Assembly (NCBI GenBank): GCA_002691025.1
Contig: NZGT01000112.1
Coordinates: 32,885 to 83,694, forward strand
Reading direction: 5' to 3'
DNA: 50,810 nucleotides
Origin: Spirochaeta sp.
GTDB lineage: Bacteria; Myxococcota_A; UBA9160; UBA4427
Below are positions 23,600 through 29,271 of this stretch, one piece after another; position 1 is the stretch's first letter, and every line of letters begins with the position of its first letter. The notes beneath the pieces are model-generated. The model worked only from the letters and a program-made list of their open reading frames with translations, ran no database searches and was not told the DNA's origin. The translations under genes were made by a program, and so were the position numbers.

Positions 23600-24430
23600 T
23601 CAAGATAAAGGCTTTTGGGCCTCTGCGTGGTCTGAGGGTGGCCTCACCGAGATCCCCCGTGCCATCAGGTCCCGCTTGACCCGAGCCACCGTGGTCTCGC
23701 CAAAATGGAAGATCGACGCGGCCAAAGCAGCCTGGGCGCCCCCCTCTTCGGGGCCCCGGCCCAGGGCCGACGCGAGATCCGCTGCATTCCCGCCCCCCCC
23801 GGAGGCGATGACCGGAATTCCCACCGAATCGGAAACCGCTCGCAAAAGGCCAAGGTCGTACCCGCTCTTGGTTCCATCCCGGTCCATGCTGGTCAGGAGG
23901 ATCTCGCCCGCGCCGGACTCCGCCATCTTCTGAGCCCACTCCACCGCGTCGATTCCCGTCGGCCTGCGACCGCCATGCGTGTAGACCTCCCAGCGTCGAG
24001 GTGTGACCAGATCCCCTTCTTCTCGGACGGCCCGCGCATCGATGGCCAACACCAGGTTGGCACTCCCGATCTTCGCCGCCGCGTCACACACCAGATCCGG
24101 GTCATGGACGGCCGCAGTCATGATCGAGACTTTGTCCGCCCCCGCATTGAGGAGATCTCGTATGTCCTGCACCGATCGAACACCGCCCCCCACCGTCAGG
24201 GGCATGAAGACCGTCTCCGCCGTTCGTGACACCACATCGAGCAGGATTCCTCGCTCTTCATGGCTGGCGGTAATGTCAAGAAACGTAATCTCATCCGCCT
24301 CCTGCTCATCGTAGACCTGGGCCACCTGCACCGGGTCTCCACAGTCCACGTGGTCGACATACTGAACGCCTTTGACCACACGGCCCTGGTCCACATCAAG
24401 ACAGGGAATGATTCGTTTGAAGAGGCTCAT
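23600..24430 (-). CDS. hisF: imidazole glycerol phosphate synthase subunit HisF
   Basis: This is the cyclase half of IGP synthase in histidine biosynthesis, a (beta/alpha)8 barrel of 276 residues. It has the catalytic Asp in [15 protein letters not shown], the second in VLAIDARAV, and phosphate-binding loops TVGGGVRSV and VIASGGGG. It uses the ammonia delivered by HisH to turn PRFAR into IGP and AICAR. ATG 24430 overlaps the hisH stop as ATGA, so the two subunits are translationally coupled. hisA, normally between hisH and hisF, is absent. A short extra C-terminal tail (after RPPSD) is present. Confidence 0.96.
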
Positions 24431-25074
24431 CGACTCTTTTCCACCCAACGCGCATAGGCGTCCAGAAGACGTTTGCCTGATTGCTGGCTCTTTTCCGGAT
24501 GAAACTGCACCGCGAATACCGAATCGCGGGCAACCGCGGCTGCAAACTCTTCACCATACTCACAAACGCCGACCACCGAATCGGATTCCGAAGGAACCGG
24601 CCTGTAGGAGTGCACGAAATAGAAATCGTCTGACTCCGGGAGCTCCGCCACCATGGGATGATCGCCCCGGAAGTGAACCCGATTCCAGCCGATATGGGGC
24701 ACCAGAAGCCTCTCGGAGCCGGATCCCGATTCCGGGAACCTCTCCACGCGACCCTTGAAGTAACCCAATCCGGGCACGGTTCCGTGCTCGTCCCCTTCCT
24801 CGAAAAGCACCTGAAGGCCCAGGCAGAGTCCGAGGTAGGGTCGTCCCCTGGAAACCGCATTCAAAACGGCCTCATCCAATCCCTGCGACCGCAAGTGATC
24901 CAGTGCGTCTCGGAAAGCACCCGCGCCCGGCAACACGATGCCATCGGCTCCGTCCAGCTCGGCCGGTGAATCCGCCCGGACGACCTCAAGACCGCTGCGT
25001 TCAAGCGCCTTGGCGACACTTCGCAGATTGCCCGAGCCATAGTCCACCAACGCCACCTTGGCCGAACCCGTCAT
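24427..25074 (-). CDS. hisH: imidazole glycerol phosphate synthase glutaminase subunit HisH
   Basis: This is the glutaminase half of IGP synthase, a class I glutamine amidotransferase of 215 residues. The nucleophile Cys is in [12 protein letters not shown], the His/Glu pair in VQFHPEKSQ, and the oxyanion strand in [11 protein letters not shown]. It makes ammonia from glutamine for HisF, encoded immediately downstream. It is preceded by a 67-base gap after hisB. Confidence 0.96.
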
Positions 25075-25141: not shown

Positions 25142-25747
25142 CTAGAGCGCACCCTTCACAGTCGGAAGGCCGCCCTCTCGGGGGTCCACTGCCACCGCCA
25201 AACGCAGAGCACGCGCCACGCCCTTGAAAACCGCCTCGATGACGTGATGCGGACTGCGGCCATAGCTCTTCGTAATGTGCAGATCGATCCCTGCGTTCTG
25301 CGAGAACGCATAGAAGAAATCTTCACTGAGCAGAGCGTCGAAATCACCGATCTTGTGATTGGTGAGCTCCACGTCGTAACAGAAATACGGACGATTCGAG
25401 ATGTCCAATGCCACCTCGACCTTGCTCTCCGCCATCGGCAACACAAAAGACCCGAACCGGGAGATCCCCTCTGCGGAACCCAACGCTTCACGGAATGCCT
25501 GACCGAGAGTGATCCCGACATCCTCCACCGTGTGGTGATCATCAATCTCGACATCACCCTTGGCCTCGATCTCCAGATCAAAAAGAGCGTGCCGGGCAAA
25601 CGACTCGAGCATGTGATCGAGAAAGGGAACGCCGGTCTTGACCTGATATTGGCCCGACCCGTCGAGATCGAGTTGGATCCGAATCTCGGTCTCTTTGGTT
25701 TTGCGTTGAAGGCTTGCCGCTCTTTGTCGCACTGCACGGTCCGTCAT
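25142..25747 (-). CDS. hisB: imidazoleglycerol-phosphate dehydratase HisB
   Basis: Monofunctional IGPD, 201 residues, with no histidinol phosphatase domain. The manganese ligands are all visible: FLDHML, EIDDHHTVEDVGITLG and SPHHVIEAVFKG, plus HALFD near the start. It dehydrates IGP to imidazole acetol phosphate. It lies between the HisD-like gene and hisH, and its intact metal site contrasts with that neighbour. Confidence 0.96.
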   Translation of the reverse strand: MTDRAVRQRAASLQRKTKETEIRIQLDLDGSGQYQVKTGVPFLDHMLESFARHALFDLEIEAKGDVEIDDHHTVEDVGITLGQAFREALGSAEGISRFGSFVLPMAESKVEVALDISNRPYFCYDVELTNHKIGDFDALLSEDFFYAFSQNAGIDLHITKSYGRSPHHVIEAVFKGVARALRLAVAVDPREGGLPTVKGAL

Positions 25748-25798: not shown

Positions 25799-27166
25799 CT
25801 AGAGCTCCGCCTCTCGGGCCACCTCACGCTCTCGGCGTGCCCGACGAATTCTTTTTAGCCGTAGCTCGACCGATGCGCCACGTGCCCCCAAACCATCGAG
25901 TTCCGACAAACGGATGGCATCATGGCCCAATTCTCTCAGTTTGGAAGCTTCAAACTGAACGAAATGGCTCTTTTTCAGAAAATCCTCCGCTCCCAGCGGC
26001 GAAGCGAAACGAGACGCTCCCCCCGAGGGTACGACGGAGCTCGGGCCAGCCAGAACTCCCCCTACTGCGGGTGGCGTGTAGTGACCCAGCAGGATCGTGC
26101 CCGCATTGTGAACGCCTCTGAGTACTTTGTCCGGATTCTCCACGGTGGCCGCCAGGTGTTCGGGCGCGTAGCGATCCGCAAGCTCGATGGACTCTGAGAG
26201 CGACCGGGTCACCACAAAGGCAAACCGCGAGGCCAGAGTCCTCTGCCACTTTTTCGAACCCGAAAGGGTCTTGAGCTGGGTCTGGATCTGGCTTTCCACC
26301 CGAGCGGGCAGGGCCTTGCAGTGCGTGATCAGGATCCCGCAGGCTCTCTCCCCCATCTGGGCATGCGCCAACAGGTCGGTCGCCAACCAAGCGGGCGTCG
26401 CCGTTTTATCGGCCACCACACAAAGCTCCGTCAACTCGGAATGAGTGAGGATCCCCGCGTCCACCTGGAGTTCGCTCTTGGCCATTTCAATCTCGGGCTC
26501 ACCCGGTGCCACCATTTTCTCCACCCGAGGCACTTGATCCGTCCCCCACGCGAAAGCCGCCATGGCTTCTACGCCCGACATCTTGAAGACCCGGTGGACC
26601 CCTGCGAGTCGCGCAGCCATGAGAATTTCAGCCCGCACCTCTCCGGTGGAATCCGGAGCCACCGCCAGTGAGATCTCCGGAACCTCTACCGCAGAAGCCG
26701 GCGCCGCATACATGATGATCTGGGAAGGTTCGAGTGCGACTTCAGAACTCGACACGAGGCCGACCCGCGAAAGAGGGCGGACCCTTTGTCCCATGAAGGC
26801 CCCGCCTTCCTCGCGCACTTCCCAACTCCCGGGAATCCGCTTGCGGTGGAAATCGCGAACCCGCATGGCGGCTTTCCCCAAAGCCGCCCGATCGGAGCCC
26901 GCCACAGCCTCACAGCCGCGATCCCACTCCTCGGAACTCACTTCCAGAGTTTTGAGAACCTGTTCGCAATTCAATGGAAGTAGCGCCAGAAGCGCTTTAT
27001 CGCCGGATCGACGCACTTTCTGGATCTTCCCTCGCGCCTTCTTGCTGGCACTCGGCGAGAGACTTCGCGGGGCTCGAGTGGATGCATCAGCCCATCGCTT
27101 TTCGAAATCTTCATCGGTGCTCGTGAAGATCGGCCACGATGCGTTCGTCGTTTTTGTCCTCGGCAC
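25799..27166 (-). CDS. hisD: HisD-fold protein lacking the zinc ligands (degenerate histidinol dehydrogenase)
   Basis: The 455-residue product aligns over its length with histidinol dehydrogenase (ILMAARLAGVHRVF, EAMAAFAWGTDQVPRVEK, DRYAPEHLA). It occupies the hisD place in the his cluster, before hisB. The acid-base Glu-His pair (PEH, 335-337) is kept. The zinc ligands known in E. coli HisD (Q259, H262, D360, H419) align with His268, Met271, Gly370 and Arg429. The glycine-rich cofactor loop is also replaced (SSSEVALEPSQ), and NHVLPT has become SSVVPS. So it is either non-catalytic, zinc-independent or repurposed. The start GTG 27166 has AGGAGG eight bases upstream; an in-frame GTG at 27205 is weaker. 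The reading frame is intact, so this is not a simple pseudogene. Confidence 0.85.
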   Translation of the reverse strand: MPRTKTTNASWPIFTSTDEDFEKRWADASTRAPRSLSPSASKKARGKIQKVRRSGDKALLALLPLNCEQVLKTLEVSSEEWDRGCEAVAGSDRAALGKAAMRVRDFHRKRIPGSWEVREEGGAFMGQRVRPLSRVGLVSSSEVALEPSQIIMYAAPASAVEVPEISLAVAPDSTGEVRAEILMAARLAGVHRVFKMSGVEAMAAFAWGTDQVPRVEKMVAPGEPEIEMAKSELQVDAGILTHSELTELCVVADKTATPAWLATDLLAHAQMGERACGILITHCKALPARVESQIQTQLKTLSGSKKWQRTLASRFAFVVTRSLSESIELADRYAPEHLAATVENPDKVLRGVHNAGTILLGHYTPPAVGGVLAGPSSVVPSGGASRFASPLGAEDFLKKSHFVQFEASKLRELGHDAIRLSELDGLGARGASVELRLKRIRRARREREVAREAEL

Positions 27167-27214
27167 TCTTCCCACCTCCTGCGAGTCGCGGAGGAGGGAG
27201 TCCACCTCGGCCCG

Positions 27215-28195
27215 CTAGGGGACATCCTCTTGCGAGTCGCCCCGGTTTGCTGATTGGCTTTCCAATGCGTTCGGTTCTTCTTCTTGTTGTACGGCCAGGG
27301 GGTCCGGACGGCGCGCGACCACAACGCGTTCACGGCCCGCGAGATCTCGCAAAGTCTCCACCTCACTCAACCCTGAATCAGCGAGCCATTGCGCCACTGT
27401 TTCCACCTGGGCCGGGTCCATTTCCAGAAGAACCCAACCTCCAGGCGAAAGTCTGGCCGCTACTTCAGCCGCCAAGGGCTTCAAGACCCGATAGCCATCC
27501 ATGCCTCCGAAAAGCGCCACCGCCGGCTCATGCTTGAGTTCGGCCGGAAGTTTCGCTGAATCCTTTTCCGCCACATACGGCGGGTTTGAAACAATGAGAT
27601 CAAAAAGCGGTTCGCTCACAGGCTCAAAGAGGCTTCCCTCCAAAAACACGACGGAGTCCCCCACCTGCAACTCTTCGGCATTCTCGTGTGCAATCTGTAG
27701 TGCCTCAGGGGAGACGTCCGTGGCTGTGATTTGAGCGGATGGACGCTCCAGTGCCAGGGAGAGGGCGATGGCACCACTCCCCGTCCCGATCTCCAGGACG
27801 CGATAGGGACGGTCCGAGTCGACCATCCGATCCAGCGCCGCCTCCACCAGGGTCTCCGTGTCGGGACGAGGCGTGAGAACGTCCGAAGTCACCCGGAAGC
27901 TCCGGGACCAGAACTCCTTCTCCCCCACCAGAATAGAAACGGGAACGCGTTCGCTTACACGGCGTGAAATCAGTTCGCGATACTGGGCTCGCTCGGCGGA
28001 CATGACGGGTTGCTCGAATTTCAAATAGAGGTCGAGCCTTCGGACCCCGAGCACGTGCGCCAGAAGCACTTCGGCGTCGAGCCTTGGCGTTGGAATCCCA
28101 TGGTCGTTGAAGTGACCGGTCGTCCAGCGAAGAAGAGCCAGAACCGTCCAGGTCTTTGATCGAGCGTCGTCGCTGACGCCGGCGTCCTTGGTCAT
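27215..28195 (-). CDS. prmC: peptide chain release factor glutamine methyltransferase PrmC
   Basis: PrmC (HemK) methylates the glutamine of the GGQ motif of release factors. The 326-residue protein has an N-terminal helical domain, [16 protein letters not shown] (motif I), [12 protein letters not shown] (catalytic NPPY) and a C-terminal extension of about 30 polar residues beyond the family's usual end. Its ATG at 28195 overlaps the prfA stop as ATGA, so enzyme and substrate are made together. Confidence 0.95.
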
Positions 28196-29271
28196 CCGCC
28201 TTCTCGATCGGCCTCTTCTTTGGCGGCGATATGGGACGCCACCGCATCGAGCAAGCCTGCCAATTCACCCTCCATCACAGCTTCAAGCTTGTGAAGCGTG
28301 ACCCCCGCCCGATGATCCGTCACTCGACTCTGCGGGAAATTGTAGGTGCGGATCTTCTCACTGCGTTCTCCGCTTCCCACCTGAGAGCGGCGCTGGCTGG
28401 CCCGCTCGTCGGCCGCCTTCTGTTGTTCGAAAGCGTAGAGGCGCGAGCGCAAAACCGTCATCGCCTTGGCTTTGTTCTTGTGCTGCGACTTCTCATCCTG
28501 ACACTGAACCACAACCCCCGTGGGGACATGTGTGATCCGCACCGCTGAATCGGTGGTATTGACGCTCTGCCCCCCGGGGCCGCTGGCGCGCATGACGTCG
28601 ATTCGAAGATCGTTGGGGTTGATGTCCAGATCCACTTCTTCGGCTTCCGGCATGACGGCCACCGTCACCGTCGAAGTGTGAATCCGACCCTGGGCCTCGG
28701 TGGTCGGCACACGTTGAACACGATGGACCCCGCGCTCCCACTTCAGTCGCGACCAGACCGCCTCACCGTCAAACAGGGCGATGATCTCCTTGAATCCGCC
28801 GCCGGCCGTCTCGGAAGAAGAAAGTGGATCGACCCGCCAGCCCAATTCATCCGCATAACGGCTGTACATCCGGAACAAATCTGCGGCAAAAAGAGCCGCC
28901 TCGTCTCCGCCCGTGCCTGCGCGAATCTCGAGAACGACATTCTTGTCATCATTCGGATCTCGAGGCCGCAACAAGTCAGCCAGTTTCTCATCCAGGACAA
29001 GATGCTCGGATTCCAACTCCTCGACTTCCGCTCGAGCCAACTCGGCCAACTCCGCATCGCTGTCGTCCAGCATGGCGCGAGAATCTTCAAGCTGCTCGAT
29101 GACTTCTCGATAGCGAAGCCCGACTTCAAGCAGCGGTCGCAGACCTCCTAGAGCCTTGGCCAACTTCTGGTACTCACCCGCCTGCCGAGCGATCTCGGGA
29201 TCAAGAAGCTGGGCTTCCAACTCTCTTGCTCTTTCCTCACTTTCAGCAATGCGGGCCAGATAATCAGCCAT
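28192..29271 (-). CDS. prfA: peptide chain release factor 1
   Basis: RF1 ends translation at UAA and UAG. The 359 residues include [12 protein letters not shown], whose PTT takes the place of the P-x-T stop-codon-reading tripeptide, and [12 protein letters not shown] with the GGQ that enters the peptidyl-transferase centre. The [15 protein letters not shown] segment is typical. It follows rho by 70 bases. In many deltaproteobacteria rpmE sits between rho and prfA; it is not here. Confidence 0.96.

Follow-up and report, generated by a model that had tools for sequence, protein, structure and literature searches.

A degenerate histidinol dehydrogenase in a conserved his cluster, probably displaced by an acquired second enzyme

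The histidinol dehydrogenase (HisD) homologue encoded in the his cluster of the window, the whole stretch of 50,810 nucleotides analysed here, is very likely catalytically dead as a histidinol dehydrogenase, judging from the residues it has lost, and its zinc and cofactor sites have apparently been lost because an imported second enzyme took over. HisD is the enzyme that completes histidine synthesis. We assign a probability of roughly 0.8 to the reading that the protein is a HisD pseudoenzyme left behind by displacement, with the acquired second hisD doing the job. As befits a pseudoenzyme, it has lost cofactor-binding residues, is predicted to keep its fold and evolves under purifying selection, and the best reading is that it is not a new enzyme. 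No HisD pseudoenzyme was found in the open-access literature, which does not imply absence elsewhere.

The gene is encoded on the minus strand, a small correction to the sequence-only reading that preceded this analysis, and is surrounded by the following features.

25799 to 27166, minus strand: degenerate operon HisD, 455 amino acids from the GTG start (PF00815, TIGR00069, ligand positions H/M/G/R, AlphaFold, Foldseek)
27174 to 27180, minus strand: Shine-Dalgarno sequence AGGAGGT, seven bases before the GTG at 27166-27164 (sequence)
25142 to 25747, minus strand: hisB, imidazoleglycerol-phosphate dehydratase (PF00475, NCBIfam HisB models)
24427 to 25074, minus strand: hisH (TIGR01855, 217 bits)
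23600 to 24448, minus strand: hisF (TIGR00735, 334 bits)
27215 to 28195, minus strand: prmC, upstream neighbour of the degenerate hisD (PF17827, synteny)
28192 to 29271, minus strand: prfA (synteny across relatives)

The sequence-only reading had described an intact gene in the normal hisD position with a perfect Shine-Dalgarno sequence, and all three descriptions hold. The open reading frame (25799-27205, minus strand) has no internal stops, the ribosome-binding motif reads AGGAGGT from 27180 to 27174, and an alternative in-frame GTG is present at 27205. By sequence the protein is a HisD, exceeding the curated cut-offs of both PF00815 (320 bits; cut-off 27) and TIGR00069 (306 bits; cut-off 243.8). 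The window gene order prfA-prmC-hisD-hisB-hisH-hisF-rpsU belongs to a block conserved by synteny (rluD-yfiH-rho-prfA-prmC-hisD-hisB-hisH-hisF-rpsU-dnaG-rpoD), and the prmC-hisD-hisB slot is kept across the family. In trees, the window HisD clusters with the vertically inherited operon HisDs that occupy this same slot. An arginine-rich C-terminal tail, RIRRARRERE (25802-25850, minus strand), is common to canonical and damaged operon copies of the order and is missing from E. coli HisD. No hisA is found in the window his cluster at the hisF-hisH junction (23600-25074).

Alignment of the window HisD with the E. coli and Brucella enzymes and 47 HisDs from relatives places the four E. coli zinc ligands, Q259, H262, D360 and H419, opposite H, M, G and R (residues 268, 271, 370 and 429, numbered from the 27166 start), in agreement with the earlier claim that all four had been lost. 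The catalytic pair E326-H327 is retained, also as claimed. In the Medicago and E. coli structures NAD+ is bound by Tyr130, the Gly133-Gly134 loop, Asn211 and the 233-237 loop, with Tyr130, Gly133, Gly134 and Asn211 contacting the NAD+ pyrophosphate and ribose (PMC5585171). The corresponding positions of the window protein (Y130/G133/G134/N211/S-T237) read V/S/E/E/T, within the canonical range only at 237, and the 233-237 loop reads H-S-E-L-T, so that the replacement of the cofactor loop first noticed by eye is borne out. The further changes relative to E. coli comprise Y130V, P132S, G133S, G134E, N211E, H367S and E414D. Of the 168 alignment columns that do not vary among 24 canonical operon HisDs, the window protein has lost 17/22 in the active site versus 27/146 elsewhere (odds ratio 15, p 9e-8). 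When each of the 24 canonical HisDs was left out in turn as a control, it had lost 0-1 of the roughly 22 invariant active-site columns.

These residues also bear on the suggestion of an NAD+-dependent dehydrogenase that needs no zinc or acts on a different substrate, which we consider highly unlikely. The retained Glu-His pair would suit such an enzyme and HpsN shows that the fold accepts other substrates, but the NAD+-binding residues Tyr130, Gly133, Gly134 and Asn211 are replaced and the HpsN motif is absent from the window protein. It is because the NAD+ loops have gone together with the zinc site that the zinc-free dehydrogenase proposed earlier is disfavoured.

Structure prediction is consistent with a protein that still folds as a HisD. 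AlphaFold run on 55 sequences modelled the window protein at pLDDT 88.4 (an earlier model from five sequences had reached pLDDT 64), and a Foldseek search with the model returned HisD structures on top, the best being 4g09 with a TM score of 0.88 and the best PDB matches all being HisD. As the input alignment consists of HisDs, the model shows fold compatibility rather than proof, and it is at this level that the HisD fold is predicted to be kept.

The window genome, G000, from a marine member of the Myxococcota, is a fragmented draft (183 contigs, 85% complete) in which HisG, HisI, HisB, HisH, HisF and a HisA were detected; the pathway is thus there and a dehydrogenase is needed. The only other HisD match in a whole-genome search is the first 86 codons of a gene adjoining sir2 at the edge of contig G000:C119. 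The best match of this N-terminus is the complete second hisD of the sister species G001, an orthologue in the same place after sir2 that keeps Q/H/D/H, the E-H pair, His367 and Glu414. A genome search for a second HisD with Q/H/D/H ligands, as the sequence-only reading had proposed, therefore yielded a second gene, although its own ligands are unreadable because the contig ends before that region. The idea of a pseudoenzyme with the real hisD elsewhere in the genome is supported by this truncated gene together with its complete orthologue. A tblastn search of plasmids found only HisD homologues below 60% identity.

Such a draft could in principle mislead, and sequencing error or a chimeric contig was weighed as the source of the changes. 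The fragmentation and incompleteness of the assembly speak for it; however, the frame is intact, synteny is conserved and parallel damage is seen in nine other assemblies. With parallel losses in relatives and a reading frame under purifying selection, this explanation is extremely improbable.

Two other his genes of this genome are recorded here as separate observations. A eukaryotic-type HisA (TIGR02129, 359 bits; cut-off 229) is encoded at G000:C95:18079-18765 (L100:8014-8790, minus strand), and similar second HisA matches are present in G001, G003, G009, G011, G012 and G015; it seems that a second his enzyme, HisA, has been replaced as well. In addition, two HisG matches of near-equal score lie at G000:C108:10150-10605 and G000:C86:38466-38945, the latter beside HisI, and one of them may be a paralogue.

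The survey of relatives covered 30 genomes of the family. These relatives are Myxococcota/'Deltaproteobacteria' metagenome-assembled genomes (MAGs) such as TMED88, OFTM73 and UBA4427, from the GTDB order UBA9160, and individual MAGs may be chimeric. Family genomes whose only HisD lies in the his cluster carry a canonical copy (529-556 bits), and those with a second HisD elsewhere carry an operon copy that is damaged (304-457 bits) or deleted. The sole exception is G015, whose 80% complete assembly has a damaged copy with no second HisD found and whose congener G009 has a second copy. The sequence-only reading had held that ligands kept by most relatives would point to error or decay; the premise is right for relatives with a single HisD, which keep them, but not for relatives with a second HisD, which do not. 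Nearly all of 50 further genomes of the order have one HisD, scoring 520-568 bits where complete; outside the family, only G066 has two HisD matches that are both near-complete (558 and 466 bits; G066:C327, G066:C322).

The second HisDs are of two kinds, one found beside sir2 in g1, g9 and g11 and elsewhere in g3, g4 and g12, and the other, unrelated to it, in genus g5. Some close relatives have gone further than the window genome. In G001, a 60-codon 3' remnant with in-frame stops is all that lies between prmC and hisB (L094:8480-8920), and in the four g11 genomes examined prmC stands directly beside hisB with no recognisable hisD. The scar and the deletion indicate that the operon HisD is dispensable in close relatives. 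In genus g5 the his cluster comprises hisD-hisB-hisA only, with hisH and hisF missing, and G005 has a divergent hisF and hisH on a separate contig (loci L040, L049 and L053 of g5, and L101).

On a species tree built from eight neighbouring genes, parsimony gives three origins of the pattern, three being too few for a formal association test, and the affected genomes as a single clade are rejected (p-AU 0.0025). The damaged copies cluster in the full HisD tree, which led us to weigh a single origin for them. We rejected it: once the active-site columns are removed, the grouping is weak (67/56) and a test does not reject placing g5 with G002 as the species tree does (p 0.49), and the host genomes do not form one clade.

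All ten damaged copies have changed NAD+ loops, with Asp or Glu at Asn211 in nine, and in all ten the losses concentrate on the active site (odds ratios 4.6-26). H327 is lost in five, and E326 and about 90 invariant columns are retained by all. The zinc-ligand positions read H-M-G-R in the window protein, H-S-A-H in G015, H-S-T-H in G012, Q-Q-D-H in g4, Q-R/K-D-P/A in g5 (where His327 has become Arg) and an intact Q-H-D-H in G003. This gradation suggests that the cofactor site may have been lost first and the zinc site later.

The retention of H419 in the copies of G003, G012, G015 and g4 raises the possibility that the operon protein pairs, as an inactive subunit, with the acquired HisD. HisD forms a domain-swapped dimer whose active site is shared (PMC5585171), and because His419 and Glu414 of one subunit complete the active site of the other, a functional subunit might be completed by a dead one. 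However, the window copy carries R and D at positions 419 and 414, position 419 is P or A in the g5 copies, the acquired HisDs share only about 26-29% identity with the window HisD, and relatives use the acquired copy alone. Such a partnership is hardly probable.

The displacement reading would order these events as follows. The ancestral, vertically inherited hisD would have sat in the his cluster when a second, canonical hisD was acquired, beside sir2 in this genus. The acquired HisD would then have taken over histidinol oxidation, and the operon copy, freed from catalysis, would have lost its NAD+ loops and zinc site while staying intact, folded and HisD-like under purifying selection. Its retention would most likely reflect either a non-catalytic, dispensable role or the need for a translated reading frame between prmC and the needed hisB-hisH-hisF to yield a protein that folds. 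In its own genus the operon hisD may be on its way out.

Measurements of selection argue for more than passive decay. Maximum-likelihood codon models gave omega values of 0.054-0.091 for damaged copies, which remain intact genes, and 0.034-0.042 for canonical ones, with 0.02-0.05 for the neighbouring hisB and 0.06-0.14 for prmC. On the G000 branch omega = 1 is rejected (2dlnL 75.5), although the omega of this branch is conditional because synonymous sites are saturated there. Neutral simulation at 0.43 substitutions per site led to an expectation of about 8 stops, against 0 in the window hisD. Low omega and the lack of stops together indicate that the protein remained folded over most of this period.

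Two accounts of why the protein is kept are both compatible with the displacement history. One is repurposing, in which the protein gained, independently in several lineages, a new function that selection actively maintains, as a regulator, scaffold or binding protein; we rate this as plausible, at somewhat under even odds. Strong purifying selection in three lineages, the recurrent acidic residue at Asn211, the columns that every damaged copy retains and the persistence of damaged copies across genera all favour it. Nevertheless, g11 has deleted the gene and G001 retains just a scar of it, and the amount of change in the window copy along its lineage, as read from trees, is about 2.7-3.4 times that of marker genes, versus about 0.9 in canonical copies. 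The zinc-site replacements differ by lineage, so no shared new site is visible. The repurposing suggested by the sequence-only reading is possible: the protein is under constraint, but no new active site was identified.

The other account is a passive relic without a role, in which stops and frameshifts are purged as polar on hisB-hisH-hisF and misfolding is costly. The tight spacing of the genes in the cluster, the scar in the sister species and the clean deletion in g11 fit a relic, and so does the pace at which the G000 and G015 copies have evolved, each having changed, when scaled to marker genes, about three times as fast as canonical copies. Yet in g4 and g5 the neighbouring prmC has a higher dN/dS than the 0.05-0.09 of the damaged copies, which is also lower than polarity alone should give. 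A relic is a reasonable candidate that falls a little short of an even chance. The broader generalisation is put forward tentatively: at least twice and probably three times in this family, replacement by an acquired HisD would have made the resident copy of the his cluster a conserved pseudoenzyme that has taken on a non-catalytic role, with the NAD+ site lost before the zinc site in parallel.

The family offers a natural series in the replacement of an essential biosynthetic enzyme, from the canonical enzyme through loss of the cofactor site and loss of the zinc site to scar and deletion. As every stage is found at the same genomic place, one can test directly in which order the sites are lost and what becomes of an enzyme once it is displaced. 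It also shows how profile annotation misleads, since a probably dead protein passes the TIGR00069 cut-off as a histidinol dehydrogenase; incomplete genomes combined with such annotation give a false picture of the histidine pathway.

Finally, the window protein can be set beside three known systems. HisZ, a histidyl-tRNA synthetase paralogue that lacks its catalytic activity, regulates HisG and is the required partner of short HisG; the likeness lies in a pseudoenzyme retained in the histidine pathway, but HisZ is required whereas the operon HisD copy is dispensable in close relatives. HpsN ((R)-DHPS / sulfopropanediol 3-dehydrogenase) is likewise a divergent superfamily member with the HisD fold, but it keeps its Zn2+ and NAD+ sites and the motif G-R-Y-A/S-H, where the aligned residues of the window protein are E-V-A-L-E. 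The closest comparison is HisD itself (PF00815, TIGR00069; E. coli 1kae, Medicago 5vld), which the window protein resembles in predicted fold (TM 0.83-0.88), length, place in the his cluster and the Glu-His pair, and from which it differs in the loss of all four zinc ligands and the three NAD+ loops.
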